Shown: positions 22,877 to 61,789 of the stretch, in pieces
Layout: each line of letters starts with the position of its first letter
Numbering within the stretch: the first letter of the stretch is position 1
Origin: Allacma fusca
Taxonomy: Eukaryota; Arthropoda; Collembola; Symphypleona; Sminthuridae
Assembly (NCBI GenBank): GCA_947179485.1
Contig: OX359247.1
Location: forward strand, 30,356,801-30,420,800
DNA length: 64,000 nt
Reading direction: 5' to 3'
Made by a program: the position numbers and the translations under genes
The notes under the pieces: generated by a model
Databases searched by the model: none
What the model was told of the DNA's origin: nothing
What the model saw: only the letters and a program-made list of their open reading frames with translations

Positions 22877-23578
22877 GCAGAATATCCCTTCAATGAACAA
22901 TGTATGTGCTTTGAGAGATTCCCAGCCGTTCTGATGTTCTTTGCTCGCAGTTCTCCCAAGTTTTGTTTTAGTTTGTGTATGTACGGAAGGATAATATGCA
23001 TATGTTTCCCTTTATAAATATCCTAGAGTTTTCCAGAACATAGGACTTTCTCCAGCCGGAGTAGAGTACAATTTGACTAACCAGACTTCTTTCTCCTTGT
23101 ATACACGAGGGTTTTGTAGTGTTGAGCAGTTTTGGATGCGCCATATTGAAAATTTCCATTCTTTTTAGCCCTGGATTTGTTTCGGAAGAATTTGAAATGC
23201 TTATTAGAAAGTTTTTGACAGAGTGCATATCCATTACGTGTTTCGACCACACTGAGGATCTTGTGCGGTTAATTTCTCATAAGTTTTACAGAATATTTGC
23301 GAGAAGATTCTTATAATTTGTTGGGAGATAAGTCTCGAGGTTTTGTTTTCCAAAGGCTACAAAGGCGGAGGAGAGAGGAGGAGGGAGGGAGTACATTGGG
23401 AGAGAGAGAGAGAGACAGGTCACACCGGGAGTACTACAAGCCCAGAAATATGATAACAGACGGCGAACAAACTTCCATAAACTTGTCCTATCTGTTTATT
23501 ATTCAGTCGCTGGAGTTTTGTGGGCAACTCATACTTCATGCACTTTTCCCCTAAGCTCCTCCAAAATATATAAACTCG

Positions 23579-23683
23579 CTCTCTCTCTCTCTTGTCTGTC
23601 TCCACACATAAAATTACTGCCTTCTCGCTCTTTTTCTCTCTCTCTCTCTCCCTCTATCTCTCTCTTTCTCTCACTCTCTTCCC
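23579..23683. repeat. CT-rich tract
   Basis: Two CT runs separated by unrelated sequence; the second is imperfect (ccctctat). Confidence 0.9.
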
Positions 23684-24110
23684 CACAACACCACTCCTGT
23701 ATGCATCACGTACGGATGAGTTGGAATTTCTGGGAGAAATATATTTTTTTGATTCTGAATTTTCTCCTTTCTTCCCCAAAATGATAAAAGACTTTGTACC
23801 AAACTACTGCCCTATTTTTACACGGACGTGTACAGTATCTATCTGATGTGAAAACATCAGCAGAAATTCACAATTCTTTCCCCTAGTTTTAACCCTGGCC
23901 GAGTATTGGGAAAATTTAAATACTGAGATACTGGGACTTTGCTAACCCTCATATATACATTTATGTTTACAAACATCAAGTATCTATGTATGCATTGGGA
24001 CGCGTACAGAATACCGATGTACGCTGACAGATAAATTGTAGAGCAAAATACTGAATAAAGTAAAGTGCGTGTGAGGGGGTATTTTCACAATCTTATAGAA
24101 TAATGGGAGG

Positions 24111-24130
24111 TGTGTGTGTGTGTGTGTGTA
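24111..24130. repeat. (GT)10 microsatellite
   Basis: GT run leading into atgtaagggcatacatatg. Confidence 0.9.
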
Positions 24131-24937
24131 TGTAAGGGCATACATATGTATATATGTAGATTGTGTGCATGCTAAAAATAAACGCTAAAAATATGACCAT
24201 GCGTACCCACACAAGTGTTTATAGTAACAGTAGTAGTTATGTATGGAAGCACATGCTCTGTCGAAACACATGCGCCTACATAGGAGCTGTGACAGCAAGT
24301 AGGCAGGATCTTGTGTATATTCTTGTATGAAAAACTCCAACTTGAACAGCATATGGATTCACATGCTGTCAGATGCGTCCGGAGAAGAGATGAGGTCTGC
24401 GGTGAGGATGGATCTTGATCAAGCTCATCAAGCTCGGAAGCACATGTCCCTGGCCGGTTGTATACACGTACATATGTATGTAGGTACGCATACGTAGATA
24501 GTATATGATGAAGTGACATATGTATGTAGGCATACTAGTATAATTACAGATATTATTCTGTGTCAGCACATGCATATATTTTTTTGTTGAGTTTCTTTCT
24601 TTTCAACTCACATGAAATTTTTTGCTAGTTCCTCACAACTCCTGCTTTTTCCCCTTTAATTTTTTCCCTTCCTACCTCCTTTGTTTACTGAACGATTCGC
24701 ACAAGGAGACTCGATTCTGATTAAGTTTTCCTCAAATCTCTCTTACTCCCTTTCTGCTGACGAGCTGAAAGGGAGCGTGAAAGGGAACGGTTTTTCCAGC
24801 TTGTAAATTCCTTGGAATATTCATATTTATTTAGGAGTTCCACAATTCCTTATTCATGTGTCTCACACTACGCTCCGTCCTGATAATTAGGACAGTGAGG
24901 GATGCGTGGGACGTGCGTGTATTTTTAAGAGACTGTC

Positions 24938-24941
<4 letters not shown>

Positions 24942-24976
<35 letters not shown>
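24942..24976. repeat. (CT)17 microsatellite
   Basis: Perfect CT run of about 35 bases. Confidence 0.95.
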
Positions 24977-24979
<3 letters not shown>

Positions 24980-26009
24980 GGAGACAAAAGGAGAGGGAAT
25001 CTTGCGGTGAAGTCATGCATATGTAAGTGTGGGGGATGAACCTATGTACATACATCAGAGATGTACGGTGTGAGTAATAAGGGAAGGGAAAAAGTAACTG
25101 ATGCTTGTTTTTGCGGATGCTATTGAGCACTGGATAGTCAGGGGCATATGTAGTTTATTAAATCTAGGCGTATGTACATACAAAATACCATTAATTTCAC
25201 GGTTGTGACAGAAAGGAGGAAAGCAATGGACTCATCATCACAGGGGAAGTATATAGGGGGAAACCGCAAATCAAACCTTAGGATGAGTATTTATGTACTC
25301 CTCCAACCTACTGTGAGTAATAAAAGAGGAACATGTGTTCCACAGAGTCCAGTGTATAACTTGCCAAAATATGTCTCTACAATGTATTCGTAAATCAGCT
25401 CTCTCACACCGCACTCCTACCTGTGCCCATCGACCTATTTATAACTACTCCTTTCAATTTTCCACATCTTCATGTGATCACTCTTGAATTGAAACCCTCA
25501 AACGCATGTAATGTTTACTTGAGGATTTGGGAATGCAGAGGAAATTTAAAAAAAGATATATACACTGATTAGCTATCTTCTTTTTGCGGGGGAATTCTAA
25601 GAAAAAAATTTGTGGTTTATATTCTTTTAAAACAGGTACCTCATGGGGCCTAATTTGTTTGAGAGAAATGGAATTCTCATGCGGAAATTTGTATTGATTT
25701 ATTTGCCTATTATTAGTTGTTCTCTTTTTGACACACTGAGAGAGATTTTTTTCTGGAGGAATTTCTGGAGCGAAACTTTCAATAATAATTCCAGTTCCCT
25801 TGTTAACCCTAAAAGTTTCCCTCCCTGCTTACTTTCTTTTTCCACTTTACTTTCAGGGAAATTAAAAAGAGAGGAGTGGAATGAGGAAGAATAGGAATCC
25901 TCAAAATGTTTTCCGAACTTTACCATGGAATTCCCTGCCCTCGGCACTTACATATTCTGCCTCGCTATAGTAGTAAGGAATTTATTCCAGACATTTCCGT
26001 CTTTTTCCC

Positions 26010-26032
26010 TTCTCTCTCTCTCTCTCTTTCTC
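26010..26032. repeat. (CT)n microsatellite
   Basis: CT run of about 20 bases. Confidence 0.9.
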
Positions 26033-26339
26033 GTCTTACTTTTGATGAGAGCAGGCTTTCATTTTAGATAAGATGTTATTTTTTTTTGTATCTCGGGTAA
26101 AAACTGTTTACAAGGTATTATAAGTTTTTGCAAAAAAAAAATCCTCGAGCAAAATATTTTGTAGCCTGGTTGGATTCCTAAGCAGAAGAATTATGTGAGT
26201 ACATATGGCATTGATTACCTTTGAACTTTCAAGGGGAAAAATATCAAATGCCTGGGGAATTATTTCCTCATCCCATTTCTTACTTTTAACGTCCATTTCT
26301 TTTTGGGCAAGCATTCACCGTGAGATGTATTAGGTTGGC

Positions 26340-26789
26340 AATAATATAAGGTATTTATCTGAATGTATTGGAGGAAAAGTGGCTGAGCTGAGAGAAAGAG
26401 AGTTCAGAGAAAGTACTGAGAAATTGTTTGAAAATGCTAAAACGAGTATATTTCCGAGAAATAATTCCTGCAGTGGCTCATAATAGAAAATTCTTAAGAG
26501 TAATATTTTTTAAACTAAACGGATCCTTAAAAAAGTTTCTCAATCAGGTTTTTTGGGAACATAATTACAAGAGCAGAAATTAGGTGAAAGTATTGGAGAA
26601 AGTGGAGGTGAAAGTCCCGGTAAATTTTATGGAGAAAGTAGCGAATAAAAATCAGAAATTAGAAGTTTCCGAGGAAAGCTATAAAGAGAAAGTAAAGGCA
26701 AAATTGGGAAAGCACGGCACTCCTATGGTCGCATTACAGGGAGAAAGTAGTAAAAGTAGACTAGAATGGTTTGATAGCTATCGAGGTAA
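26340..26789 (+). repeat. Cluster of GGAGAAAGT-type motifs
   Basis: Exact GGAGAAAGT copies lie at 26595-26603, 26631-26639 and 26740-26748, with many one-mismatch versions (gtgaaagt, agagaaagt, gggaaagc) between 26370 and 26750. Spacing is irregular, so this is not a clean tandem array. The + strand is open from GTG 26584 and reads as a Lys/Glu/Val-rich peptide up to a strong donor-like CGAG|GTAAGA at about 26785 (phase 1), but there is an in-frame TAG just upstream and no pyrimidine-rich acceptor. I treat it as repeat rather than exon. Confidence 0.6.
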
Positions 26790-27434
26790 GAAAGTTTATC
26801 TTTCTCATTTTTTGCTCACTCCTTACACTCTCCCCCAGAAACTCCACACTACTTGCTCTCGTCTGGTCTGCTTTCCCACTCTCTCCGTCTCCTCGAGCTT
26901 TCACCATGTGACGTGCCTGGATTTAGTTTCGCCTTTGGCTCCAGCTCTCTCCTTTCAAGTCCCGATGTTTTTACAAGCCTTTCCAATCAACTCACACAGA
27001 AATCTTATTAAGACCGCCTAAATGATAGAGAGGTGAAGTGACGTTGGATTTCAACTTTCTTTCCCCGAACACTCCCCACTCAAGACACAAACACATGGGA
27101 TATATACCCTTGTAGTGGTTTTTCCCTCACACTCTCACGCTTTGAGAAGATCAACTCCAATTTTTTTCTCTCCCAACAGTGTCTACAGCCAGAAACCTAA
27201 TTGTCCAATTGGACTCTCTCCACGAAACTAGTTTTGTCTATTTATTTTAAATTTGCTTTCCCTTTCACTCCCTACACTCCCCTACCTTGAAGTAGTGGTT
27301 CTTTCATCAACGTGGAATGCTGATATAGTCGATAATAAATGAAGGGCTTTTTCCGTAATTATAAGGATAAATGAAGGGACACACTTGGAGACAGAGCCTA
27401 AGCCTTGTGACTCCTTAAGAGAGCGAGGAAGAAC

Positions 27435-27452
27435 GGAGAGAGAGAGAGAGAG
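27435..27452. repeat. (GA)n microsatellite
   Basis: Short perfect GA run. Confidence 0.9.
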
Positions 27453-30249
27453 AAAATCGTGCACAAGAGAAGGAACTCTGAGAGGAAAACTTGGCCGGCA
27501 ACTGATGACTTTATCGCTTTACTTTAATTAGGACGACTCTTCTCTCTTTCGCTTTCTCCCACTTGCTTTCTTTTCACTGAGTCCCTGATGATGATGAGTC
27601 GTCAAAGAATTGTAATCACGATCAATGCTGAAGAATCGAGGAAGCAAGATTGCTCTGCCTCGGGTCTTGCTTTCTCCTCTTCTCACTCCCTTCCCGTCCT
27701 ATGTTGTACTTTCCTCTTCTGTCCTTGTATAATCTGTATATATATAGAGAGAGAGCTCTGTTATTCCTCTCCGTGCGGACTCGGCATAAAGGCAAGTATT
27801 AGCGACAGGCAGGGATGGGAATGAACAGCACCGGAATTCCAAATATATCAAGGCCATATGATTGGTATTCCTGTGAGGCCCCTGATTTGGTGACGATGAG
27901 TATGACGAAAAGGACAAAGCGTAATCTCTTTTGAGTAATTAAGCAAAAACGGGAAACAAAGTATCCTTCCCAATGTTTGCTTTAGATCTCGTCCCTATTT
28001 TGTTTTACCATCCCGCCAGACTTTCTCCATTTAATTACATTGACTTAGAAAGCCGGCTTGGAATTTTTCTCCACGTTTGTCTCACGTGCGCTTTTCAGGA
28101 GTATATCCATTTCATTTGAAAGGAACTAGAATGCAATGTATTACTATATCTGTAATGTATTTCCGTTCACACTGTAGGACAAATCCTTACATGACAGAAA
28201 TTAGTTTCGCTATTGTTGTACCGATAAAAATTGCATTCCAGTCTTTGATGGTCTGAAACCTTGCCTTGGCTTTTTTTATAACTGTGCGTATAATTAAATA
28301 TAGATAGATACTCGTACGAAGCCAATCTATTCTTCATTAGAGCTTTTTTTAACTGATTATTTATCCTTTCGAAGATATTCTGTAGGAACACTTTTGGCAA
28401 ATGTGTGGGAACTTAGCGTACTCACTTATGCAAACATTAAGTACAATATTTAATTATGAGGATCTATCATGATGCAGGAAGTATCCTACGTCAATTACTC
28501 TCTCCTGTATTGCAATATACAAGCCAAAGTTATGATTTAAAGAGTAAAAGTAGCGGGATCAATACCTCCAAAAAACCTCATGGGCGTTGGAGATACATAC
28601 CTCAGGGAAAATTTCCCTTTGCCTCCTTCAAAGGTGCTTAAAAGCTACAGCGTACTTTACATGCAAAATTTAAGCCTTATAGGACATGAGCCACTTCGAA
28701 AAGGAGAATTTCCCCGGGAAAATGTTCGTACATGAAGGGAGAAAATGCATTATATGCTAATGACGTATTGATTCATTACCCAGTTCCTGCTCTCCTCTTC
28801 CCTCACATCTCCACATTACTATTCTTCCTCGCAAATGTTTGTCCTGAGCAAACAGCTCTTGAAGACATGTCCCCGGAGTTTTCTCATTTTGGCTTATACA
28901 GCTCGATTGAAAAATCCCAGTCCCCCTTTCCTTTTTGTAGAATGTACATATACATACATACATATTTAACTGTAGAGCTCCTTTGTAAACTCCGACGTTG
29001 TAAAAGTTGATGGAGTGTATTAAAATGAAACCAACGATTGTCCACTCACACCTTGTTGAGTCAGGCAGGAATGAGGTCAGTGTGGAAGTAATGCCTGGTG
29101 ACAAGTGGAAGATTGGAGAAAGTTTTGTCATTAGATTGCTTTCCGCCACACAGAAAAAAGTAATCCTACATGTGAGTCTTCTCTCATCAATTTTTTCCCT
29201 CTGCCTCATTCAAATTTCTGTGCATATGATTACACACTGTGTACATATCACCATGCACGTATACATACGTTTATACATAATAGACGTACCTATCTATATT
29301 TACCTCTATACAAATGTATTTAAATGAAGTCGAGTGTTTTATGCAGACACGTTTGCTTCTTTTTGCTCTCGATTTGAAAACGTGTAAGCGTATGGATATG
29401 GATGCATCATACATATATATTCAATATAAAATACAGATCAGTAGGCTAGCAGTTAAAGACTAAGGAATCGGATTACCTCATCATATGGGATCGGAAGGGC
29501 TGAAGAGTCTCATTCTCGATTCCGATTCAGAGGTAGATTTTGAGGACACTCATCATTCCAGGGCTTTCACCAGCCCGTGTCTTGAAATTAAGCGGGAGAA
29601 AGTTTAATATCGGTCAAATTACGGGAGATGAAACAGAAAGGGAGGTTGGCAATATTGGAGGTATTTTTCCTCTGTCTTCCCTCTCTCTCTCTCTCCCTCT
29701 CTCCCAACCCACTCCCATACAGTTGGATATATGAATAAAGCAAATGGAGAAAGTGAGGAAAGGAATGACAGGATTTGCCAGCGTAATATTACCCCTCTGG
29801 AGAGGAGACAATTTCCTAGCGTGTGGCGGGCTTGTTAAAACATAGTGAACTCAAAGGAGATTGAGAGACAGGAGTGAGTGAGAGAAAGGAGAAAGTGGAC
29901 GGAAGAATGGCAACTGAAGACAAAGGAGGAGGAAGAGGAAGGAGAGGAGAGGAAAGTGGTGGTAAAGCCTTCTCTCAGCCCATATTTACGAAAAGCCCCA
30001 TTGGAACGTGAAGAGAAGATTCAATGTAAAGTATATGAGAGAAAGAGCTGCGTTGACAAAACTCCAGTCGGAATATTTGTTTTTTCGTATGACTGGTCAC
30101 GTTCTTTCTTCTACTCTCATTTTATCATCTTCTTTCTCCATCTCTCCTCCTTTCCCTTCTGTATACGCTGTCTGTCTTTTCTCCGAGTAAATAGTCTCGC
30201 TTTTTATAACAAGAGTTGTTTGCCGGTCTGTGTGCCTTGCACATTTTTC

Positions 30250-30251
<2 letters not shown>

Positions 30252-30280
<29 letters not shown>

Positions 30281-30298
30281 TGCTCTCTCTCTCTCTCT
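30252..30298. repeat. (CT)n microsatellite
   Basis: About 46 bases of CT with a single ttg interruption. It lies within a 246-codon open frame and produces its Ser-Leu repeat. Confidence 0.95.
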
Positions 30299-33200
30299 TT
30301 CACCCACATACCTCCACAAATCCTATAAAGATCCACATTATAAGCCTTTGTTTGTTCACATGCAAGAGCACTTTTATACCCGAAAATTTTCTTGTTTGCA
30401 TATCTACCTTACATAAGCAATTCCAGATACACTCAAAAAGAAAAGCACACCTAAAATATGTAGGGGAATTTTCTTCCACTTTCTCCTCGCCTGGGCTGAG
30501 TAAATTTGAAGGGATTTTGTTTGAGGGTCTTTTTATTTGCGAAGTGTCCTCACGTCAATTTTTTTCTTTCTCTTCTCCCAACTTATACTACCTCCCACTT
30601 CTCTCCACACTCTCCTGATAGTTTGATGAATGGAAATCCGAGAGGGTGTACAAAGACCGGAGGAATTATTATAAAAATTCCTATTGAAATTCTTGTGGAC
30701 AAGTTCGCTCGATAAAAATCAAAAAAAGATTAATAAACAACCGGTTCTCTTTTGCATGACTTAATTAAATATGGCGGCGCCAAAATATCCACTCCATCCG
30801 ACGTTCTCACACTCCCTTACAATTCCTACGCATACAGTTTACTATGTGACCAAGTCCGAGGCTATGTAGTGTGTATGATAAGAGAGCTAGAGCTCTTTCC
30901 ATACACAGACTGGGGACTACTCCATCGCTACTTATTATCTTTCAATATGCATAGAAAAAGTTGCTCCATTTCAAACTGCATTCTCTTGACACTCATTTAC
31001 TTTTAACTTTAAAAGTTAGACTAACTAGCAAAACACGCTAAGTCAGAGTAGGGCAGTTGCTCGGGCTATGCTAAAGGGAGTCTTATCTGTGGAGGGTTTT
31101 TTTTTAATAGAGAATTCTCAATGAGTCTTTCCCAAGTGTGAATATTTAGCATACTTTACAACTTGACTTAATGACAGCTAAAATGAATAAATGGGGCTAA
31201 GTTGTTGAGATTGGGAATTAACGTGAGATTTTGGAGACTTTTGTGGAAGAGGAATGTTATTTACTATTGGTATATACATATACTCAGGTAAGAGATACGG
31301 GGATGGGACTATTTGTGAGTAAATTTATAGGACTTGATTGTTGATCCTTGGGGTTCTTGTTTTCGGTGAGTCTAATGAGAAGATGGGATAAATTGCTTAC
31401 GAGTAACTTGCACTTATGACTTGTACAATGCTTCTACTTGACTCTCACCGCCACTGCTTCTGCCTCCATGATTTCCAATGGTGAGATTGGAGATTGACAA
31501 GAGCTCTGTGCAAAGGGGGGAGGTTGTTTGGGAAAAAAGATTCTCTCATGAGAGAATGGGAAAAAAGCATGTTAGAAAAAAGGAGGACTATAAAAGATCC
31601 TTATCACTCTTTCTCGGTCTTGACAAAATCTTGAAACAGGTGAGCTGTTGTGCTCCGCACTTCCTCCTTATAAAAGCTTTTGGTGAGCTAACAGGTTTCC
31701 AAAATGCAGGGCCTCAGGGTCGGAAGTTGAAGCTATGATTTTACCCTCCCCTCTTTTCCCTTCTGTTGTTTTTTTTCTCTCTATTTTTCTCGCTCCTTTT
31801 TCTTCTCTTCTATTCTCCCTCCACAATAACTTTATTCCCAGGGAACTAAATTGTAGATTTTGACATTTGATTCGTCAAAAGTAGAGCTGCATACAGACCT
31901 ACGTATGCACCTTGCACTATTTACCAGTTTTATTACTCTCTCAAATATAACCTCGGATTCTCACAGAGTTGCTTTAGTTCCTTGCACTCCTTGCAGGAGC
32001 AACGTAGTCTCCTCTGTTTATTAAGAGTTTTGTTCTGTGGAACATGTCAGTTGGTATGGACAGCAGGAGGTACATACGCATGTATGTGTTTATGTATGTA
32101 TGTAATTACGTGTCCAAGGTAGGATGTACATACATGAGAGACTAGGAGTACCTATTTATCTGGACGAGCGTAACTTCAGGAGCGGAAAGTGTTGGAAGGG
32201 AAGAACGTTACATCCAGTGACGGTTCGGAGGTAGTTAATACAATTTGGACGATGAAATACCTCCTTGTCATAATTATTGTTCTGAGCGTCTGAGAAAGGG
32301 GGAGAAAAAAAGGCATAAAATCACAAGATTAATATTGCTTAAGGAGAGGGCAGAGGGTTTAATCCTCTCAGTTTTTACTCCACTGAGCTAAGCATTCTAA
32401 TAAAACCAAACTTCCCACACCTGTCTCAGCTCCATTGAACCTCCGTCTCACAAATTTCCAACTCTCGCAAACCAAATCCACTACAAGTGGAACTCCCGAA
32501 AATTTAGAGCTTGTTCAAAACTTGAGATACGCACATACACACATACACACATGCGTGCCATTTTATATTAATACTGGCGTGCCAAAATGCAAACCACGCT
32601 ATTCGGAAGGGCTCAAACTATTTCCCCTGTGTACATTTCAATAGGAAAACAAGCTATTTTAGGACTTCTTCCTTATTCACTACCAATTTTCCTGCATATA
32701 CTTGAAAATTAGTGGAAAAGTTTCTTCTAGCTTCCAAACGAGGATTTATTTACCGCCTGTCAAAATGAAACAAATGTTATTTTAATCTTCCCACAAGATG
32801 CTATTATGTGGGTACTGCTCTAATTACAAGGGCAAAACGCTTTATTTTTAGCGATTCCAAAGTTATACGGCATTAGGCTCATGTCAAATTGCAAATCGTG
32901 GTGCTTTGCATGCAACCCCCTACTTTGTCTATGGTACCCATCAAACTGTATAAAAAACTGACTGGTACATATTTAGCCCGTCAAAAGAAAGGTCCAGTAT
33001 GGGGTACTTCTCATGCAAAACAAGCTATATTTAGACTGTCAGCGTCCCTATTTCCTATTGTGCACCTTTGTTGAGACTCCCATTTGTTGTGGGATTGCAT
33101 GAGAATATTCTCAGTTGGTATATTAAAAGGAGTTAGACAGCTTAGGATGTAGAATAGTATTAGCTAACAATGACTATGGGTACCTAGAACACTGGGTGTA

Positions 33201-34796: not shown

Positions 34797-34849
34797 TCTC
34801 TCTCTCTCTATCCTCCGCTCTCTCGCTCTGTCTCTCTCTCTCTCTCTCT
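34797..34849. repeat. Imperfect CT tract
   Basis: CT run interrupted by tatcctccgc and gctctg. Confidence 0.95.
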
Positions 34850-38133: not shown

Positions 38134-39529
38134 GGAGATCCACGGAAAGGATTTTCTTTCTCTTGTGGCCATTCTGGAGCAATCACTCCAAAGAATCTAT
38201 ACTTTCTCCAACTTTTTCCACGCTCGTACATGCTCAGAATCGTCCTTTATATGGATTTTAAATTGTGAAATTGTCAGAGAGACCTTAAGGCTTACTTTGT
38301 CTTCAGCGAGCCGAGAATGACGTTTTGGAAATTGTTATTGCTCTCAATATCTCGTCCTCCAACAGCCATTCCAATCGACCTGCGACATTATCTCTCCTGG
38401 CCATAGGAAAGGAAGGGAGCTGAGAGAATTATCTTATATGCAGATACTCACGATGAGTTCATGATTTCCTATACGTTCGCATACATACACCTCTCTGGAT
38501 TCACATACATACATATATGCCACATACATAAATGCATACGAGACATTCTCCCACGATTTGAAAATACTTCAAAAACGTTTCCTATTTTTATCGACGTATT
38601 CTCCACAAAAGCTCTCAGAGAAAGAAGTAGATATTTGACGAATTTGAATCCTATGGAATAATATCTGTGAAATTTGCTAGTTTCCCGTACGAAGTGTTAC
38701 TTTAAAAATAGCTCTTACATTTGGAAATTTAAATGGTGGGAATTTCATCTCCCTATTCCCTCGAGGATTTTAAAGATTTTTTTTTAGCTATTTATGGACT
38801 TGCTTGGATTCTAGCTTGAAGCAAATAACATGGGATTTTTTCATATATCCATCTAATATCTACTATGAGTTAGTATTAAAACAAGGGAAGTATAAGTTCA
38901 CATAATGTCATTTGTGGAGTGCAAGGCTTGAGTCAAGATGAAACATTGCATGGGAGCGTTATCTCTTGATGTCACAATTTCCTCGTATGTGAGGGAGTGG
39001 GTCTTTGTGTGGGGAGAATGGTGCAAAGTCTGGAAAATGGCAAGGTTTTATGACCTGAAAACATGAATAATTGTATCATAAAATTCAGCTATAAAAATGG
39101 AAAATCTCACATATGTATATGGGTCTATTTAGGATTTTTCATTTTAAACCTAATGGAGAGTGTTAGGGATCTCTGGTTGGGAATCGAATCCTGAACCTAT
39201 ATTTTTTGCTTATACGGGTGGGATTTATATTTTACATATTAATGTACTATGTATTATGAGTTTTGTAATAATTATTACAAGGATTCATGGTAGTTTCATG
39301 GAATGTGGCTTCCATAAAAATGAGTAGAATGTGCTAATAGGTGAACATATGCCACACGCCAGGCCTATCAACGTACATCTATCTACTATTAATGCCTTAT
39401 ATGAGAAAGAAAAAACACGCTTTTACAAGGTATAATAAATACTGCACCTGTTTTTATTCCTTAAATGATTAACGCAAATGACGCAGGGAGACTCTTATGA
39501 TTCTTGCATTACAAATATGCATTTATTTG

Positions 39530-39620
39530 GAAATGGAGAAAGTATCAGGGAAGGCGAGGAAAGATGAAAGATGCAGTGTAAGTAGAGAAAGTACTTTGGA
39601 GAAAATAAGAAAGTAGCTCA
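39530..39620 (+). repeat. Short GAGAAAGT-type cluster
   Basis: One exact GGAGAAAGT (39535-39543) is followed by related words (gaggaaagatgaaag, tagagaaagt, tggagaaaat, aagaaagt) within about 80 bases. It has the same irregular spacing as the other clusters. Confidence 0.5.
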
Positions 39621-41344
39621 TAATAGTTTATTACTACTCCAATGTTTGATGTCTCACCTCCCTGCATATGTAGGTACTACTCTTCCCGGCTCATTCTCCA
39701 AGAAATGTGTATTGGAGGGTTGCATCTCTCATAATGGCTCGAGTTCCTTAGTAATGATTGCTGGAGGTAATTTACGGGAGAAAACAAGATAGAGAGTTGT
39801 AAAGAATCGGTATGTATAGGACACCGCGATGAGGATCTCATTTCCAAGAACACAGCGTAGTTCTGTACCATTCCCGGTAATAGTACTTATTGCTTTCTCC
39901 TTTTCTGGTTTCTGGAACTTTCTGGGAGAGAAATCTGCCTTATGCTAACTCTCAGTGGATCCAGAATCGGAAATGACCCTTTTGCCAGCTCTCGACGCCA
40001 TTGACCATGTTGTGTATGTTTATGCGAGGAGGTAATGGGGGAAAGGTGGATTAGAAAATAATAATGGGTATAGCCCAATTGGAGAAAGAGTTGGGTCCAG
40101 GTTCGACAGGATCTCTCCAGGCCTTCCCTTTCTCCTAGCCAAACCACTTTTATTGCGCAGAGGCACTCAGTATACATAATTGATCAGGATTCGGCACCAC
40201 ATTTAGCCAGCAGGGAATTCCTCTCGTAAAGATTACAGACTTTTACAGCACAGGAAATGTTATCTCGAGGTTGGAACTCTAGTTAAAGAAACACACTGAA
40301 TTTGGCGGCTCCTCTCGCTCCCCGATAAGTACACTTCATATGGTCCTGCTCGGAGTGAGGAGGTTCAACTTCCGAATAGAAAGTGGAACTTTTGGCCGGA
40401 AAGTTGCGCTTCTCTCTTGTAGCTTTCTCCTTCTGTGCTCCTCTTTTTTGGGAGAGACTGTGTGAGAGAACTGATGGTGATTATCTAACGTTAATTCTTG
40501 ACGAGAGTCAAATGGTTGCCCTGTTTATTTTCCACTCCATACGATTCCTTCGGGAGGAATGGGGAAGTAGTTGGAAAAATATGCATGACGACAGTCTGCC
40601 ACTTTATCCTCTCGGAGAGCAACCTCCATTTGAAGCCTTTGCTTTCATCTTAGCCCTCTTTCTGCATTTAATTACATGTGTCCCTATAAACCCATATATC
40701 TTCTCAACTTCAATATACCTATATATTTCGGACTGGACTCAAATACTCTTTCTCCTTGTCTCCATCCAGTAGTCAGAGGATCCAAGCATGCATATGTACG
40801 CTTCTTTGTGCACATATACCTCCGCCTTGATATATGAGTGTAATGGAAAGTCTGAAAGCTGTAATGCCAGTCGAATAGAAAACTTCAAACCAATCCTGTA
40901 ATTTTCTTTATCCTAGCAGCAGAAATGCAACCTCTTTTTCTACCCAAGCTATATATGAAATATAAATGGTTTTGGTTACGGGTTCCCGAGAAATCTGTAA
41001 ATGGAAGAATGGCAAGACTCCGAACGTTGTTCCGTCTGAGCCGGTTGTAACAGGGAGGTTCTTCTGGAGAAAGTAAAAGTTTTGATCTAACAGGAAGAAA
41101 AGTTTGCTCTTCAATGTGCTAAAATGTTAGTAGCTATGGCTTAAATAGGGTATAAAAGTCATTATTCACTGCTCTTAGCCCGAGCCGCCGTCTGCTTTCT
41201 GATCAACTCTACGCACATTCCTTCAACTCTCCACTATTTCGCTTTTACTTTCGGGGAGTACTTGCCTCATCTACATATACTTGTTTACCAACTCTTGTTA
41301 TCGACTTACAACAGACCAGGATGCATGTAGGACTGTTCTTGGAA

Positions 41345-41475
41345 CATTTGGTGAAAGTCGGGTGGCATGATGGAGAAAGTGTAGTGAAAATAAGAGAAAG
41401 CATAGAGAAAGTTGATGTAAGTACAGAGAAAGAGAGAGTACAGTGAAAGTACGGAGAAAGTACAAGGAGCCAGTC
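41345..41475 (+). repeat. GGAGAAAGT cluster
   Basis: Exact copies at 41372-41380 and 41453-41461, with ggtgaaagt, agagaaagc, agagaaagt, agagaaaga and agtgaaagt between them, spaced roughly 9-20 bases apart. This is the densest example and suggests a decayed minisatellite with a unit near gtacGGAGAAAGT. Confidence 0.65.
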
Positions 41476-44714: not shown

Positions 44715-44745
44715 AATGGTTGGAGAAAGTATGGAGAAAGTTTTG
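44715..44745 (+). repeat. Paired GGAGAAAGT copies
   Basis: Two exact copies, 44722-44730 and 44733-44741, eleven bases apart start to start. This is the tightest exact pair in the window and gives a likely minisatellite period of about 11. Confidence 0.65.
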
Positions 44746-47222
44746 GGCTCGGTTATAGTTTGAGGAAGTCGTAAGGGATGCCTTTGAGCCGGTGTATTTT
44801 ATACGGACTTGTATGGGCCGGAGTGAAACGTTAGCCAAAACATGGAATCATGATAGTGATTTTATGACTTGTCCGTATGTGTGTGTGTATATCTATGTAT
44901 ATGTGTGTACATTCCTACTGGCGCCGTCTTGGCTCACTTTTGTTATTTATTGCAAGTATCAATTGCCCATCGTATTTCATCAGGGACTTCCAGTCCCAGC
45001 CCCTGTTTTTACCAACAATCTCAGCCTTTATTTCTGTATTGGTTTATTTGTAGTAAAACTTCCATGTTTATAGATTTTCTGCGTAGTAATTTTTCACTGT
45101 TTCTTTGCTTATACAATCAGAGATAGAAAAACAAATTTCAAAATTGAGAGTCCAGGGAGTGTACCGGGAATGTTTGGAGAAAGCAGATAAAAAATATTAC
45201 AAAATACGAAAATTGGAAACGTGTATAAAAGTAGCACCAATCAAAGGAAGGAGAGCACAAGGGCAATAGCTCACTGAAAAGACCGAGTATAAAAATTACA
45301 TCAAGTGTAAACACAGCATGCCTAACAAGTTGGGGAAAGTTTTGTGCGAGAGATAAAATAAAAAAATGTGGTTGTTAGGGGTGAAAGGTAATAAGAAAAG
45401 CATAAAATGATTCTCGAATGGATTTAGTTTTTCAAATAGAAAGATGGGTAGCTATACACTTGATATCTATTACATTGCTCTATTTAAGACTTTCATGACG
45501 ACGCGTAAGTGTTTCCTTTTGACTTTCACTCAACGAGTTTGTCTGTTGTTTCATCACTAAAGCCTCAGCGTCCGACATAAATATAAGGTTAAAGCTTCTC
45601 CCACCATGGCTAGTTTTTCTCCCACTAGGAAAATACATATGTACATGCTGGAGCTTGTACATTGTTTATAACCCCACAATTGGGCCTCACACTTATGTAC
45701 GGATACTCCGACCCTTCCATATATCAGATTGATGCAATGGCTACATTTTATAGCCCATTCCTGTGGAAGCCCGAGAAAAAGAAAGAGCCAAAAGAGAAAA
45801 GAGTTTACTTCTTTCCCTTATATAGCGGGTGTGCTCGAGAGAAGAATAGAGAAAATAATACTTACCCAAAAGCATCTCTCCGTCAGTGTGGCTGGAGTTA
45901 TGGAGAGGTAACGGAGGGGTTGACCTGGCACTGACTCTCCTTTCTCTTTGGCTAAGCAGAAGCCAAAATAAAGAAGGGAGATAGATAGAGAGAAAGAGAA
46001 AGAGAGAACGTGTCGGGATTTTTATTTGGGAGTGAAAGAGAAAAGTGACTTTCTCCCTTGTGACTCGCACTCTCTTATGTATTGGGATATTTATTTCCTT
46101 TCCAGCTGAGCTTTCGTCGTTTCGGGTGGGGGAAGAACCCTTCGACCTAATTTTTTCCTAGTTGTCTTTCCCCACTTTCTCCCTACTGTAGATTAGGTCC
46201 TGGGCCACTATTGGTTTCATATTTGGCAATTATTTTTAACTGATTTCCCATCTCCGAATCCTTCTCTCTCAACTTAGTTCCAGGACTATTTCTGGATTTT
46301 TATCTTACAAAGGATAGGCTACTTGAGAGCAGTTTAATTTAATTTAAAGGCATTTGAAGCAATTTCCTTCAAATGGCCTCTCCCCGTACATACTAGTACA
46401 TTGGCAAAAATTTGAGCCTAAATGTATTACATATTTAATTTATTTTAGTGCCCCCCTAATAACTTTCTCCGGCGACGACTGGATTTAGTGAATTTCTTGA
46501 AATGTCAGTTCTGATTTTATTTGTCCTTCTGAAACTCAGACTTGAAAATTTAATTAAAATTGTAATTTGAAAATTGAAATTGGCAGGTCTTTAGAAAATA
46601 TAAGTGAAAATAGAATTGTGAGAATTGTGGAGAAAGTTAATAAACCAAGCACACCCAACTACGTTAGTGATGGGCTTCACATCTGTCAAAGAGGGAATAT
46701 GAACTCATAGGACCTGACAAAGGCCCAGCAAGTTGTGATTGGAATACATAAGGTCCAAGGGAAAACAGATGTGCAGGAAAGACAGGAATTGTTTTTGTAA
46801 TTCCAACGCACGTATTGTCATATATTGCGAGCAATGGGAGATTTTGGGAGAGGAACTACAATGGAAAGATTGATAGGAAATGCATGAGTTGATATGTGGA
46901 ACAGTTCGTGTCAATCCTCATAAGTTGGTGGTCCGGATTGATCAGTGGACCGTGAGGAGATAGATCCAACCAGGATTTCCCACTCTTACGCGCACACACA
47001 TGATTGAATGAGCGGCTTGGATGTATCCTCATGGTGGGGCTTGGGGAAGGTATAACTAAGAATTACTGCTCAGCTGTGCAAAATCAACTTGAATATATGA
47101 TTGCCTGGATTCAAATAAATGTAACATTATTATTCAATATATTCTCAACCTTGGAATTGAGATTTTTGCTTTCTTTACTTTCTCTCTCTCTCTTCAAATT
47201 CTCCCATCCCCCTTATCCACAG

Positions 47223-48849: not shown

Positions 48850-49025
48850 GGGCAAGGTGGAAAAAGTAAGGAAGTGAAATTAAGCAAAAATTATTTAAGT
48901 AAAAGTAAAAGAGGAGAGGTTTCAGGGAGTAAAATTCATCTGGAGTTTTGGAGAAAGCAGGAGAAACTGAGTGAAAATAAGGGAAAGTAAGTGAAAGTTA
49001 GGGAAAGTATTAAGTGAAAAAAAGC
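48850..49025 (+). repeat. GAAAGT cluster immediately upstream of the Ig exon
   Basis: Contains ggaaaaagt, agtaaaagt, ggagaaagc, ggagaaact, agtgaaaat, gggaaagt (twice), agtgaaagt and agtgaaaa words on the + strand. It ends about 85 bases before the 49109 acceptor, so if real it sits inside the intron near the branch region. Almost all copies are degenerate. Confidence 0.5.
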
Positions 49026-49109: not shown

Positions 49110-49247
49110 AAGTGTCAACACAGCAGCAGTCCTTTCGGAGACGACCACAGCCCTTGGAAGTGAAATTGGGTGAAACGGCCATTCTTCAGTGTGAAGTTGA
49201 GAATCAAGCTGGGGACGTGCAGTGGACCAAGGATGGCTTTGCACTTG
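49110..49247 (+). CDS. Internal exon: first half of an Ig domain, Nephrin/Sns/Hibris (Kirre/Rst-related) family
   Basis: Encodes 45 full codons plus two split ones and is symmetric, phase 1-1. After a Gln-rich start the residues follow the family pattern F-R-x-x-P-x-x-L-x-V-x-x-G, then the Ig B-strand Cys (residue 27), and the C-strand Trp at residue 38 within VQWTKDGFALG. The Cys-to-Trp spacing of 11 is typical of an Ig fold, and QWTKDGFALG is characteristic of the first Ig domain in Nephrin-type receptors. The preceding QQxSFR and CEVxNxAG resemble insect Sns/Hbs more than Kirre/Rst as I remember them. Known role of the family: cell-surface adhesion molecules in myoblast fusion, nephrocyte/podocyte slit diaphragms and eye patterning, working in heterophilic pairs. 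The acceptor follows a T-rich tract (ends tgttaacag at 49109); the donor is G|GTAAGA. A second acceptor at 49088 is also in phase and would add seven residues. The missing second half (F/G strands with the second Cys) must come from a later exon. Confidence 0.87.
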
Positions 49248-49860: not shown

Positions 49861-51076
49861 CCTCGCCTTTCTCTAGACTTTCCTCAAATTACGGGAACTT
49901 ACCAAAAAGATAGAGTTAAACTAGACATTAAAACCAGGAATGTACGCACACGTAAGGATGGACAAGAATTTTGTAAATTAAAGAGAGATCCACTGTAACC
50001 TTCTTACGTATGGAAGTAACATTGTTACATTTGTAAGACACAGGCGCTAAATACAAAGCCCCCTAAAGTACACTTGCAATGGTCTCACTCTGGCCTCTCT
50101 GAGTAGATATGTGATTAGGGAATAAAGGCTACTGGATTTTGACCATGTTTGTAAGTCTACATGGAGGGGGAGATATACTCAAAAGTTCTATAACTAGAGC
50201 ATTGGTTCATTACAAGTTTCATGCCCGGAGAAAGTTGACTTCCTCAATTGGCATGTAAGTGCAAGTGTAGGCTGAGATAGGACATAAATTGCAAATAAGA
50301 GCGTGTGCTCATTCCAGGGTCCTGGACAAGCGTATATTTTAATGGAGAAAGTAGAGAAGTTCTTGGGTGTTTTATCTCTTCGTTTTAAAAGGGAAAGTCG
50401 GGGTGCGTCGGAACATGAATTTCTCCCCGGATTAGCTTTTTCCTAACCACATTTACACATTGCATTTGGAGTATTTTCAGGGAATGGGTCCAACCAATGG
50501 ACACTTATAAATCCACGGATCCCAAACACCACTCACTTTCAAAGGATGCATCGAGCGTCTTAATAATAGGAGCGTAAAGTCAATGCTGTGATACTTTTGT
50601 TTCATTAGAGATAATACTTACTACTTGGGATTCCTAAGTGAGCTCAGTTATGCTCAGGGAAGTTTTTGTGGGACTTGTGTCTTTAATAACATGTAAAAAT
50701 TCCCAATCATAGCTGCGTGCCTGTAAAACAAATTTCGACGATAAAATGCGTACATATGTGGTTGTGCATGCACAATTCATTATTGAGCTGTACATGCGAA
50801 CAATCTGTTGTCATACTTAAAGGCATACCAAACTGGTCCATTCAAGCAAGGAGGATATGAGCTTGCATGTAAATATGTAATATTACGAAGCCCAATCCCA
50901 TGAAGACATGCGAAGTTTTATGAACAAAGTGTGAGACCACATATGTATCAGGCCAAACACATGTATGTATGTATGTGTAATTAGATACATACATTTGAGT
51001 GAGGAAGTTTTAGGAAGCAGCATTGACTCTGGTGTGAGTCTTCCGATAATATAGGGAAAGTGAGGATAAAGAAATG

Positions 51077-51079
<3 letters not shown>

Positions 51080-51105
<26 letters not shown>
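51080..51105. repeat. (GA)n microsatellite
   Basis: GA run of about 25 bases. Confidence 0.95.
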
Positions 51106-51108
<3 letters not shown>

Positions 51109-52295
51109 GAGGAGTAGAGATAGTAAAAAGCCCTAAAGTTTTTGCTGGGAGAGTACATAAATAGGAAGCGGAGTCTTTTGCCGAGAATGCAATTCTCATA
51201 ATATGGATGGCTAGTCCTGCAGATAATGCTATTACAAGGCTAGAGGAAGGAGAAAGTAAAGAAATAACAGAATAAGAACCATCTTTACTAAGTGGCAATT
51301 TGTCTGGTGCTTTAGAATGGTCCCATTGTGATTCATCGTTCCTTATATCCCAAGTCCTTTGCCTTTCTCCAAGAGATTCCTCACAGTATCCAGCACTGCT
51401 TACATTTCACCCTCTCGACCTCTCCCGACGTACTTTCTCCCTTACTCTTCCTACATATAGATATATATATAAATACGCATCTCTCCCCACCACAATGCCC
51501 AGCCCATGGCCTTCCAAAGCTTCATGGGTCCATAGGCACTAGTGATTGGGATAAGGACGGGTATTACTCGGTCACGGACACTGACCGTACATACTCCGGA
51601 ACTAAATTTTCTTTAATTTTGCCCTCTCTACATAATCCTTCCCAAAGACAATAGTTTTCAAACCCAACGTGTACAGACTTTGTTCTGACATTTTGCAAAG
51701 ATTTCAATCCCAGTGCCAATTCATCAGCATGGAACACTTGAGCATCTACCTACTTAAAATTAAACTTTGGATTTTGGAATTCAAAGTTCTTGGTATATTT
51801 CGGATATCTAGTAATTTTTGACATATCCAAAATAATTATTACATAACCAGTTCTAAGTAGTACTCTTGCTATAACAGGGCTCCCCAGCACTGTAGAACTG
51901 GGATGCCAGCCTTTAGTACACGTCCGGAGCACTGATAGACACAAGTGGGTGAAAGGGCAGGCATACTTTGTCTGTGTGAAAGAGCAGAGAGAGAGGGAAA
52001 GTCAGGAAAAATTTAGAGTGTAGGACTATTTAATAGTGTTTTCCTTCCTGTCTCGTCCACCAGGATGAATGGGGAACGTCGTACATGTTGATGATGCCGA
52101 CATGATAAGATCCTTGTCTACTTTCCTCATCCAGTTACTTGTGTCTTAGCCCTCACAAACTTTCTCCCTTGGTCCACTCTCCCTCCTCTCTACTCCAGTC
52201 CATTGGAAGACAAACAAGTGCTTTCTCAATTCCTGCGGATTTCAAAATAAATCTGAGCACATAGAAAATGAAATGAGATGAGGAAACATTGCCGG

Positions 52296-52312
52296 GAGAG
52301 AGAGAGAGAGAG
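52296..52312. repeat. (GA)8 microsatellite
   Basis: Short perfect GA run. Confidence 0.9.
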
Positions 52313-53784
52313 TCGACGGATACTGCGGGGAGTGAAAGTATATATTATTATTGGGGAATCAGATGTGATTCCAATGCATGAGAGGGGAGGGGAAAGTATG
52401 TAAGGGATTGCTTCCAAAAAAGTATAGCTTTCACAAGAAAAATCAGAGGGAATAGGAGAAAGCTCGGGATCCCAGCAATACCTTCACTCTTCATAGTTAC
52501 CGATAAGATGGACCATGAGTGAGAAAGATGGTAGCCATCAGTATTCTGTTGAAGCGGGACACAGTGTAGCTGCTCTGGGCGACCGAGGAATTGATGCTAG
52601 TCACTTGGTGCTGTTCATCTTCCGTTATGTGCCTATTAGAAGGGGGCTATGGACAAAGACTTTCCCTTTTACCTTTTCGCACTTTCTGCATATGGCTGGG
52701 CTATGGTTCCATTTCTCCATCAATGGTCATTCTGCCTCCACGCCTTTTCTTTACATTCCCTTTCGCACTTTCTCCAACCTCCGGCCAATACATTACCACG
52801 TCACAAGTAACACTACTTTCCGTGACTCAGTTTAACTCTCTCATTGTAACTATATGGATATATGTTTACGTGCATAGTATTTTCTAAGACTCAAAACAAG
52901 CTCCAATTTTATTACAGCCGTCTTGTCAACTTTCTCCCATTTACATCTTAAAAGCATTATTTTGGACATTATATCTTTTGTATCTTTGCCAGTGCAAAGG
53001 GAATTGTTTTATGGTTACTAAACATTTTTGCAGCTATGAAAACATATGTAAGTGTATGTCAATATATACCAGTTAGTTCAGCTGACTTTTGTAATAGTTT
53101 AAAAAATGAGATGAAATTTTAGGTGAAAGCTGGCTGATTTGAAAAATATCACCTGGAGCGCTTTCCAAGGAGTTTCTTTTAGTTTGACAAAATAAATTCA
53201 GAGAAATGCCTCAAGGAGCATCATTGGTCAGGAGGGCTTCAACTTGAAAAGTTTATTTACATCATGGAGAGGGACATTTGAGCCCTCATATGTATCTACC
53301 TATAACTTCAAATGGAAAGACTACTTCTGGCCAACTTGCCCTCATAAAGTTCCCCAACGCGTCTTTTTTATCGTTTCATTCATCTTCGCTTATGGCTGAG
53401 TCGATTGCCTCATACATGCAGCAATGGAAATGAAGTTGTAATGGGAGGAGTATGAATGTATACCGGAGGCTGGAGAATAAAGAGAGGGGAAAGGTGTTTG
53501 CTTCCATTTATTGGACTGGTATTTGAAAGTGTTCAAAATTGGTTCCTGTATGCACGTAAGTACATAACGTTGTCAGTGGGGATGCCGGAATTTGATGTAT
53601 TTACTATGCTCTATTTTAAATTGGAGCTGCATATTGCAGCAGTGTCTGTATGGGAGGGTACGGGGAAGACGTTACGTGCATAATAACCCTCTAAATCTCC
53701 TTACGGCTATATCTTTTGACAATCCTTTCAATCAAACTCAAATAATCCTATCCTTATACACACTCATCTTATTTCTTTTCTCTT

Positions 53785-54065
53785 GACGGATTCTTTCTCC
53801 TTTTGACTCCCCCACTTTCTATTACTTTCTTCAGACTTTCTCTACAATTTCTTCAGACTTTCTCCGTACTTTCTTCGACTTTCCCCCGACTTTCGTTTGT
53901 TTTCTCCTGACTCATCCCCAACAGCTCTTCTCTCTAGGAACCTTTCCCACTTTCCCTGACTTTCTCCCATAAAATCCCAGTCAGCTGTCTCTCCTGCGAA
54001 GGATAACCTTACGTTATTAAATTCGAAATATTTGAAAAGCTTGTGACTTTCTATTACTTTCAAAA
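53785..54065 (-). repeat. GGAGAAAGT cluster, reverse orientation
   Basis: The + strand shows many actttct words, including exact ACTTTCTCC at 53857-53865 and 53959-53967, with cagactttct repeated at about 20-25 base intervals. It is the inverse-orientation counterpart of the clusters at 26.6 and 41.4 kb. Confidence 0.6.
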
Positions 54066-55314: not shown

Positions 55315-55333
55315 TCTCTCTCTCTCTCTCTCT
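55315..55333. repeat. (CT)9 microsatellite
   Basis: CT run preceded by a T9 homopolymer. Confidence 0.9.
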
Positions 55334-57399: not shown

Positions 57400-57404
<5 letters not shown>

Positions 57405-57448
<44 letters not shown>

Positions 57449-57456
57449 TGTGTGTG
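57405..57456. repeat. (GA)n-(GT)n compound microsatellite
   Basis: About 42 bases of GA followed directly by about 10 bases of GT. Confidence 0.95.

Positions 57457-58375: not shown

Positions 58376-58377
<2 letters not shown>

Positions 58378-58424
<47 letters not shown>
58378..58424. repeat. (GA)23 microsatellite
   Basis: The longest perfect GA run in the window, followed by poly-A. Confidence 0.95.
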
Positions 58425-58428
<4 letters not shown>

Positions 58429-58599
58429 AAATGTGGGATTGTGGATGGAAAGGGAAAGAGAGCAAGGCAGAGCAAGTTTGTCTTTTGATTCAGATTGCAC
58501 ATTCAAGTTGAGAGCCCTCTCATCTTTTTGATGAGCTTTTGCTTTGCTTGCCATGACTTGTTGGAAAAAGAGGTGTGCCTTTTATTCCTCCTCGCCATC

Positions 58600-58620
58600 C
58601 TCTCTCTCTCTCTCTCTCTT
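58600..58620. repeat. (CT)10 microsatellite
   Basis: Perfect CT run. Confidence 0.95.
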
Positions 58621-59004
58621 TCTATGCCCTTTTTTTCTCTCAGCTCTCCTCCATGCAGCCTCCAGATGATGATGTGTGTACTCCCTTTTTTTCGACTTGA
58701 TTCATGAACTCACATAAAAATCAATTGAGAATAATACTTGCATTTTTTCCCTCTCGCAAGATAAAACCAGGATGATTTAGAGCCTTGGCAATTCCCAACT
58801 ACCTTATCGCCCTCAACTCATCTTCCAACTTGGCAGCGTTATGGTAACTGTGAGGAATTTAATTGGCGAAAAATTGAATACATTAACTTTTCCCTGACTT
58901 ACTTTTTTTCCTACTCTGCAGAAGCAAAATACATATGCTGTGTGTATGTGTATGCGTGAGAGTGGAGAGAGTGAAACCACCTTTACTATTCCTCTCCTCT
59001 CGCT

Positions 59005-59031
59005 TCTCTCTCTCTCTCTCTCTCTCTCTCT
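59005..59031. repeat. (CT)13 microsatellite
   Basis: Perfect CT run. Confidence 0.95.
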
Positions 59032-60259
59032 TGCTCTCAGCTCCTTTCACTATACACATTTTCTTACGGGTCTGACGCCATTCCTCTCGATTATCATGAC
59101 AAAATGGGATCAATTCAATTTCGTGGAATGTCCCGTAGTACTAAAGATATGGATGCTCTTTTTCTCCTCCTCACTTTCACGGACTTTCATAACACTTTAT
59201 CTGCCCGTCCTTCACACAGAGTACACACAAGGTACGTATGGTCCATGTCAGAGGGGCTTTTAGTAACGAGGCCGTTATCACGAAGGTGCTTGTTTTTTAA
59301 TGTCGGCTATTCTTCCTCCATTTTGCATAGACAGTGGTAATGGACGTAATACATAAACACACGGAGGCGCTTCCACAACTCATTTTGTGCGGTATAGGCA
59401 TTTCAAGATTTATACTCACAAGTGTAGAGAGTAGTACAGTGTCAGTATGTCTTACTTCACATGTGCCAGTGGGGCTGATGACACATGTTGTATTTTATAC
59501 GTACATACATAGATACATACGTGCATATGTACATATGTAGGTTTGAATGAAAACATATGGTTATTGTGTATATTGATAAATGAACTACTTCTGTAAATAA
59601 GTTTGTGCACATACAGTCAAATGTTATTGCCAATGTACTGTATGAAGGGTTTGTATGTAAATAAGAATTAACTTGTAACTTGAGACAGAGATCGATATAG
59701 CCTAGAAGCATTTACGCTAGACATGAAGTTGTACATATATTAAGTCATATAGCGACTCTGCTATTTACTCAGGTATCTGAAAGTATACTAATATGACGCC
59801 AGCACTACATGCAAATGTTTGTGAAGGCATTCAATTTAGAGCGTATGCTTTAAATGCAAATTCATCTGTGTATATGTGGATTGTACGTGTCTATTGGAAA
59901 TGTACTGCCCGTGTACATATGTAAACTTGCGTACGTATATGATCATACAGTCTACAAAGACCACCTATAAAATAAACTGTAAGTTGGCGCATTTTCCCAG
60001 GCATCACTTCATGCATGTAAAAAACAAGATTTGAGGAAAGTGCAGGACAATGCAAAAAAAAACCCTTGAAATGAATGGTTTCATATATGGAGTGAGGCCA
60101 AGGACAATACCATTTGCAAATTCTGTCAGAAAATAAATCCATCACTTTGCACTTGCTATTTCCACTCAAAAGCCACTTTCGAAGAGATTTTTCCGGAGAA
60201 AACACTTTCCTCTGTAGTTATATCCACCTCCGAATCGATAATCGGGAAAAGACGCGAAA

Positions 60260-60285
60260 GAGAGCGAGAGAGAGAGAGAGAGAGA
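60260..60285. repeat. (GA)n microsatellite
   Basis: GA run with one gcg interruption. Confidence 0.9.
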
Positions 60286-60542
60286 AGGTAGACAAGAAAG
60301 TATAAAGAGAATACGAGAACTTATTTAAGGGGTGTGTAGACATGGAGTCGTCCGTGAGGACTGACTGGACATGAGAATTTTTAGTGAGGAAAGGGCCATG
60401 AGGATGCAGCTGACCATTTGTCCAAGTCAAGAATCGTGAAGATTTTCATTAGGCTCATCTAAGAGTTCATCCATCATTCCAACGACTTCCTATTGAGAGG
60501 CACACACATTCTTTTCACCTCCGATCCCACTCCACTCTCTTT

Positions 60543-60554
60543 TCTCTCTCTCTC

Positions 60555-60593
<39 letters not shown>
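60543..60593. repeat. (CT)n microsatellite
   Basis: About 50 bases of CT with one ccc interruption. Confidence 0.95.
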
Positions 60594-60597
<4 letters not shown>

Positions 60598-61789
60598 ATA
60601 TTCCAAAGGCTATCAACATTTCACAACAACTATCTCTCCCTCCTTGAAGGATATGTACGTCCCTGAGGTACATTTACACTTGTCGTGATTTCCAGCAATT
60701 TGTTATCTAGCGGGAAAAACCTTATACTTTTGTCATTTTTGCACTGTTTTGATTTTCCCCCTTTCCCCCATTTATACCTACATACATACATACGTATGTG
60801 GATACTAACATGTCGACAGCTACAAGTACTTTATCCCAAATGATGATGCTTCTTTTGTTATCAAATGGGAGGTAGTCGTAGGCAACCAAGTGTTTTTTTC
60901 CTCCTTTTCCCGTCGCTCCAGACGGAGGGGAAAGCTTGATTGCATAATGTTTGAGTTGTGAGACACTTTTGCCCTCAGGCCTCGACAATTAAAACGGTGG
61001 CTGCTCCTCTTTGTTTTACTCCTTCCTTTAGGATTCAGTTCCTATGCCTTCAGTCCCAGGTCCAGGCTGGTACATATACATACAGTAGTCAGGCACGTAC
61101 TATATGTTTGTATGCACAGGATATGTTCCGGAACTAAATCAAGGGATTTAGTCATTACATATGCAGCTGTGGATGCATTTTAATTTTCTCTCACCACCTG
61201 CTGCTAGCAAGTAAAAACAAGCATCTCCAATCGCTTCTTAGGATTAAGCATGAATTTGCTTTATTTTGCACAAGTCATTACATCCTAGAATTTTTATGTA
61301 TTACAATATTTTACAACATCAGCGTTGTTCCTTCTTACAGTTATTAGGAAATTCTCACTTTTGCTTCCCAACGGTCTGTGTGTACTGGTCTCCCTTTTAT
61401 ATGTAGATATTTACATTATATATTTATACTGAGGCTACATAATCACTAGTTGTGAGTTTACACGTTATTATTAGTCTTATATTGTTCACATGTATCTACC
61501 TAAACATGAATTTAGCACAGTTTCTGGGCCTGGTGTAAATTGTGCGCGAAATTACAAAATCTTCTTAGAATTTAAAATGATTATAGATAGATACGTTTAG
61601 ATATAATTCCTTATATTAAATATATTTGATTCTCTACTTGCACTCATGGAGAAAGTTGTGCCCATGGAAGAGTTATAGTGGGGAGATACCTGACAGAGAG
61701 GAAATGAGCGGACAGTAACTAAATGTAGGAAATTAAATACACTTGCGGCAGAGGGATGAAATGTGAGCTTATGTTTAAATGGCAATAAG

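Follow-up and report, generated by a model that had tools for sequence, protein, structure and literature searches.

RESULTS

The motif field and the exon that it surrounds

We have analysed a 64-kb window of the springtail Allacma fusca (contig OX359247.1, positions 30,356,801 to 30,420,800; the window is this whole stretch of 64,000 nucleotides, and positions below are counted from its first base) in which a single 9-base word, GGAGAAAGT, recurs in 32 exact copies when both strands are counted, 18 on the + strand and 14 on the - strand. Thirty of the 32 lie within a motif field (22000 to 56000), and this field surrounds an exon (49110 to 49247, + strand) of 138 bases, a multiple of three, which has AG/GT borders and encodes the first part of an immunoglobulin (Ig) domain, with a Pfam I-set match at E = 8e-6. 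The structure-database matches listed (60 of 98) include single-stretch matches to chains of SYG-1, Kin-of-IRRE 1, 2 and 3, Roughest and Kirre, with E values from 1e-7 to 1e-3; the best whole-chain value of all the matches listed (8e-12) belongs to Roundabout 1, where it is the sum of five weak stretches of which the best single one reaches 0.18. Two other proteins, titin and myosin-binding protein C, likewise stand above SYG-1 in the listed matches, with no stretch passing alone. We read the exon as part of a Kirre/SYG-1/Neph gene because of its QWTKDGFALG stretch, QWTKDG.ALG being what we take to be a signature of that family. Judged from this one exon, the gene beside the motif looks like a Kirre/SYG-1-like adhesion gene, and the GGAGAAAGT copies on both sides of the exon appear to be intronic. 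Taken with its splice sites, the exon indicates DNA of an animal.

Exons were sought among 344 stop-to-stop open reading frames (ORFs) of at least 60 amino acids, and those that passed a complexity filter, among those listed, were read by eye. No other coding sequence was recognised in the window in this incomplete search, which may have missed further exons, and the 10 of the 17 listed ORFs of at least 110 amino acids that were checked gave no Pfam match at E 0.01.

The exact copies form two populations, with nine of them in four of five short arrays built of 10-12-base units and the other 23 scattered. Upstream of the exon, scattered copies are found on the + strand at 29115-29123, 29595-29603, 29746-29754, 29888-29896, 39535-39543, 41066-41074 and 46629-46637, and on the - strand at 921-929, which is outside the field, and at 23045-23053, 28020-28028, 30478-30486, 38201-38209, 46048-46056, 46174-46182 and 46462-46470. 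Downstream of it they lie on the + strand at 50227-50235, 50344-50352, 51249-51257 and 61648-61656, the last again outside the field, and on the - strand at 51432-51440, 52159-52167, 52767-52775 and 52929-52937. With the array copies included, both orientations thus occur on either side of this + strand exon, 14 + and 8 - copies before it and 4 + and 6 - copies after it. An earlier note on this DNA had arrived by eye at about 17 copies on the + strand and about 12 on the - strand; 28 of its 29 coordinates are correct and one is off by one base (29887 for 29888), and the copies at 41066 (+), 46048 (-) and 921 (-) had gone unlisted, the last of which contradicts its statement that the first 23 kb hold no exact copy.

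Over-representation of the word

The strong over-representation of GGAGAAAGT proposed in that note is borne out, the 32 copies comparing with an order-3 expectation of 2.4-2.8. Markov models predict 0.85, 1.9, 2.8, 3.5 and 8.9 copies at orders 1 to 5 when the motif's copies are kept in the training set, and 1.8, 2.4 and 2.4 copies at orders 2 to 4 when these are masked; in 60 windows simulated at order 3 the word had a mean of 2.8 copies and a maximum of 6, and the best word without a short period had a mean of 13.9 and a maximum of 18. Seven 9-mers in the window are commoner than GGAGAAAGT, all of them di- or tetranucleotide repeats, so that among words without a short period it ranks first, followed by ACATATGTA (29 copies) and ATGTACATA (28 copies), and masking of microsatellites leaves all 32 copies in place. 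Words of the same composition that are present in the window number 429 (reverse complements included) and have a mean of 2.2 copies; the next commonest of them is CTTTCTCCA with 24 copies, which has eight bases in common with the motif, and the one after that has 12. By its ratio to the order-3 expectation the word is ninth, which weighs against its singularity, the eight higher words being four plain dinucleotide repeats together with CGTACATAC, AGTATCTAT, ATGTATCTA and ACATAGATA (9-15 copies each). CpG in the window stands at 0.55 of expectation.

The word also stands above its neighbours, the commonest one-mismatch words being AGAGAAAGT with only 10 copies, GGAGAAAGC with 9 and GGAGAAAGA with 8. 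All 27 one-mismatch words together account for 74 copies where the models of orders 2, 3 and 4 predict 37, 45 and 48, an excess of 37, 29 and 26 that about equals the excess of exact copies (approximately 30); the many additional one-mismatch copies that had been reported around the exact ones therefore exist as an excess, albeit only a modest one. The flanks of the 32 copies are apparently unrelated, save for an A (18 of 32) and a T (17 of 32) directly preceding the word. When a weight matrix of 15 bases was iterated, it wandered off to purine-rich sequence of a generic kind, with about 450 sites, and it was discarded.

Regional distribution

The regional character of the word, also claimed previously, is upheld inside this 64-kb window, most copies being confined to 22-56 kb. 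This block makes up 53% of the window, and it holds 525 of 873 (60%) copies of the composition-mates that do not overlap the motif, a proportion that differs from that of GGAGAAAGT (Fisher p = 5e-5). Since the limits of the block and its 34-kb width were set by eye after the counts were known, we added tests that depend less on that choice. The spread is uneven when compared with an even distribution (Kolmogorov-Smirnov p = 4.5e-4), and when copies within 150 bases are fused, leaving 24, scans with 34-, 20- and 10-kb widths capture 22 (p = 0.001), 15 (p = 0.028) and 11 (p = 0.017) of the 24 respectively. The longest stretch free of GGAGAAAGT is 22,124 bases (p = 0.00025, clumps merged). The wider form RGNGAAAGT behaves like GGAGAAAGT, with 61 of 67 occurrences inside 22-56 kb.

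Tandem arrays and periodicity

The five arrays differ in their internal organization. Array 1 (26586 to 26795, + strand) has seven GAAAGT cores with gaps of 12, 12, 24, 54, 55 and 47 bases and exact copies at 26595-26603, 26631-26639 and 26740-26748, and array 2 (41353 to 41461, + strand) has five cores with gaps of 22, 32, 38 and 11, a tandem period of 11 and exact copies at 41372-41380 and 41453-41461. Array 3 (44722 to 44741, + strand) consists of two exact copies 11 bases apart (44722-44730 and 44733-44741), and is grouped with the arrays although it is only a pair. Array 4 (48950 to 49019, + strand) lies beside the exon, ending 90 bases before it, and is made of seven 10-base units with a 20-base dimer, these being variants without an exact copy. 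On the opposite strand, array 5 (53814 to 53964, - strand) contains nine cores with gaps of 10, 60, 11, 10, 11, 22, 11 and 10, a 22-base dimer and exact copies at 53857-53865 and 53959-53967. Chains of at least three cores with 10-12-base gaps are found at 26.59-26.80, 41.35-41.46 and 48.98-49.01 kb on the + strand and at 53.81-53.96 kb on the - strand. The differing gaps between arrays, and the 20- and 22-base dimers in two of them, are as expected from local tandem duplication.

The frequent spacings between same-strand GAAAGT cores are 10-12, 20-24 and 31-33 bases, and no more than 2 pairs on opposite strands have their cores within 60 bases of each other. Same-strand pairs 7-30 bases apart show a strong periodicity near 10.7 bases (n = 29, R = 0.71; whole window), which is absent at 31-70 bases and weak at 71-150 bases. 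In-phase pairs make up 37 of 54, at lags that were picked after the counts, and place GAAAGT at the top of 34 control hexamers; in a second phasing test it came third of 88, behind AGAGAG and GAGAGA. When all 32 exact copies are taken together the 10.5-base echo has a power of 7.41, above the control 95% point (6.6) and below the 99.9% point (9.0), and for the 23 scattered copies its power of 4.3 does not exceed that of the controls (mean 3.6, 95% point 7.1).

DISCUSSION

Within the window, one word is in excess in a bounded non-coding region, as is characteristic of homotypic clusters, and we tentatively favour the reading that the approximately 34 kb around the Ig exon of the Kirre/SYG-1-like gene form a homotypic cluster of putative binding sites for one sequence-specific DNA-binding protein. 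Copies face both ways before and after the exon, as would be more natural for a DNA site than for a one-strand RNA signal, and this mixed orientation, together with the exactness and the scatter of the copies, would be fitted best by a binding site that acts at the DNA level. The putative protein would recognise GGAGAAAGT in double-stranded DNA whichever way the word faces. Each scattered copy would have arisen, or have been kept by selection, individually, and at a few places slippage may have duplicated a copy in tandem to yield arrays whose cores are 10-12 bases apart, near one helical turn. Occupancy of the whole field would make the factor locally more concentrated, and would set the activity or the chromatin state of the gene. 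We regard as decidedly unlikely the more elaborate proposal of a long-range cis-regulatory or chromatin domain, tens of kilobases in length, in which some 30 unrelated sites around one adhesion-gene exon would have acquired or retained the 9-mer, to be read by a putative lineage-specific protein, such as a zinc-finger protein, with the arrays growing from single sites. Should the copies prove to be bound, the field would be uncommonly dense and clean for a homotypic cluster, with the site of the factor visible directly in the raw sequence, and it would also provide an example of tandem arrays that seemingly grow from single sites already there.

A number of observations weigh against such a cluster of binding sites. 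Thirty exact 9-mers per 34 kb are dense for an ordinary enhancer, and outside the arrays the copies do not clearly cluster at a fine scale, near-copies with up to two mismatches being found within 60 bases of 22 of the 32 copies against a control mean of 18.7 and a control maximum of 27. Other words are as uneven as GGAGAAAGT, and three words with at least 10 copies exceed its variance-to-mean ratio in 4-kb bins, namely ATATGTACA (2.82), AGAGGGAGA (2.75) and ACTTTCCCT (2.75), compared with 2.47 for GGAGAAAGT; ACTTTCCCT is a variant of the motif. Strand runs among the copies gave p = 0.01 when all copies were used and p = 0.16 once clumps were merged, and strand domains, whose significance was lost in this way, were dropped from consideration. 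Furthermore, the Blimp1 consensus is not enriched, with 3 matches in the window (8 for the shorter AGYGAAAGY), and the tandem IRF form GAAAGTGAAA is rare there, with 2 copies.

A neutral dispersed minisatellite family, whose arrays, built on a GGAGAAAGT core, would arise, spread and then shrink to lone functionless units, fits the arrays, yet as a whole it seems to us doubtful. The five short arrays (one only a pair) have the head-to-tail arrangement of minisatellites, with gaps of 10, 11 and 12 bases and with dimers of 20 or 22 bases in two of them, neighbouring GAAAGT pairs are strongly periodic window-wide, and the collapse of an array can leave a lone unit. The difficulty lies with the 23 of 32 exact copies that are outside the arrays, for which decay of a minisatellite, as suggested in the earlier note, is a poor explanation since their flanks are unrelated and their helical phasing is not above control. 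By our arithmetic, array decay that gave the observed ratio of exact to one-mismatch copies would imply a divergence of about 10% per base, so that neighbouring units should remain visible; spread to unrelated sites would moreover require a transposition route, none being evident here, and the arrays differ in unit length and in favoured variant, as if each had been born locally from an existing core. A short interspersed element, which had also been suggested, explains the scattered copies poorly on the same grounds, no clear sequence being common to them beyond the word itself. The 46 self-matches in the window include none that represents a shared element around the copies (a test that would miss a single-copy element); two join motif arrays (41.4 with 53.8 kb, and 41.4 with 48.96 kb), and in each of the remaining 44, judged by coordinates, one or both of the sides touch a GA/CT repeat.

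It is also conceivable that the word is common in the non-coding DNA of this species for a reason unconnected with this gene, the empty stretch of the first 22 kb being local variation. Other non-tandem words, ACATATGTA and ATGTACATA, are likewise very common in the window, as this explanation would have it, but the 30 kb outside 22-56 kb hold 2 copies of GGAGAAAGT, close to the approximately 1.1-1.3 that the Markov models predict, and the length of the longest empty gap is improbable even with clumps merged; we consider a genome-wide habit of this kind unlikely. Even less can be said for an RNA-level element, in which opposed intronic copies would form a pre-mRNA duplex that leaves the 138-base exon in a loop and favours its skipping or a circular RNA, and which we judge to be very improbable. 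The length of the exon, as a multiple of three, is compatible with skipping, and array 2 (41.35-41.46 kb, +) and array 5 (53.81-53.96 kb, -) flank it and are complementary (67% over 101 bases), with a predicted duplex of -95.0 kcal/mol against -47.6 +/- 11.7 for 300 random stretch pairs (minimum -89.8); on these predicted energies, this pair of long, oppositely oriented arrays could anneal in the pre-mRNA. Two plain GA/CT repeat pairs around the same exon are predicted to pair better, however (-103.8 and -100.2), the predicted duplex of array 4, which is nearest to the exon, with array 5 is only modest (-60.0), copies of both orientations occur before and after the exon, and the scattered single 9-mers are left unexplained.

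Comparison with known systems

Homotypic clusters of transcription-factor sites resemble the arrangement described here in that a single short word recurs many times, facing either way, in non-coding DNA near a gene, with some copies tightly grouped; they differ in that the field here spans about 34 kb, the 9-mer is nearly invariant with few variants, and the factor that would bind it is putative. The core GAAAGT of GGAGAAAGT is common to Blimp1 (PRDM1) and IRF-E sites, the difference being that the word here starts with GGA and that the longer forms are rare. As neither the tandem IRF form nor the Blimp1 consensus is enriched, we do not claim membership of the Blimp1/IRF class. The spacing of the IRF-E and the interferon-stimulated response element (ISRE), GAAANNGAAA, in which GAAA half-sites are six bases apart, is not favoured in the window, a gap of 2 being found 20 times and gaps of 3 to 8 being found 16, 21, 15, 29, 28 and 25 times. 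The IRF-E core sequences are given in one published account as GAAAGT/C or GAAACT/C, and the sea urchin Blimp1 orthologue is described there as binding the conserved motif (PMC4497732).

The papers searched yielded no occurrence of GGAGAAAGT as a whole word, a search that did not extend to the inside of longer words, and ACTTTCTCC, counted within any word, occurs in 610 of them. The periodic An/Tn clusters (PATCs) of Caenorhabditis elegans are short motifs in introns with a spacing of about one helical turn. The motif arrays are like them in this spacing and unlike them in having no A/T runs, and a PATC-like periodicity of about 10 bases throughout the region was not found, being confined to the arrays.

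Other features of the window

No RNA genes were detected in the window by ARAGORN (bacterial settings) or Rfam (gathering cut-offs), and no phage relatives of the segment from 26400 to 30400 were found. Apart from the motif arrays and stretches of GA/CT, no repeats came to light when the 64 kb were compared with themselves; for an animal genome whose non-coding stretches are this long, that is a sparse repeat content. The second common non-tandem word family in the window, that of ACATATGTA and ATGTACATA, is akin to ACAT/ATGT repeats, and related forms are present in all three of the blocks examined.

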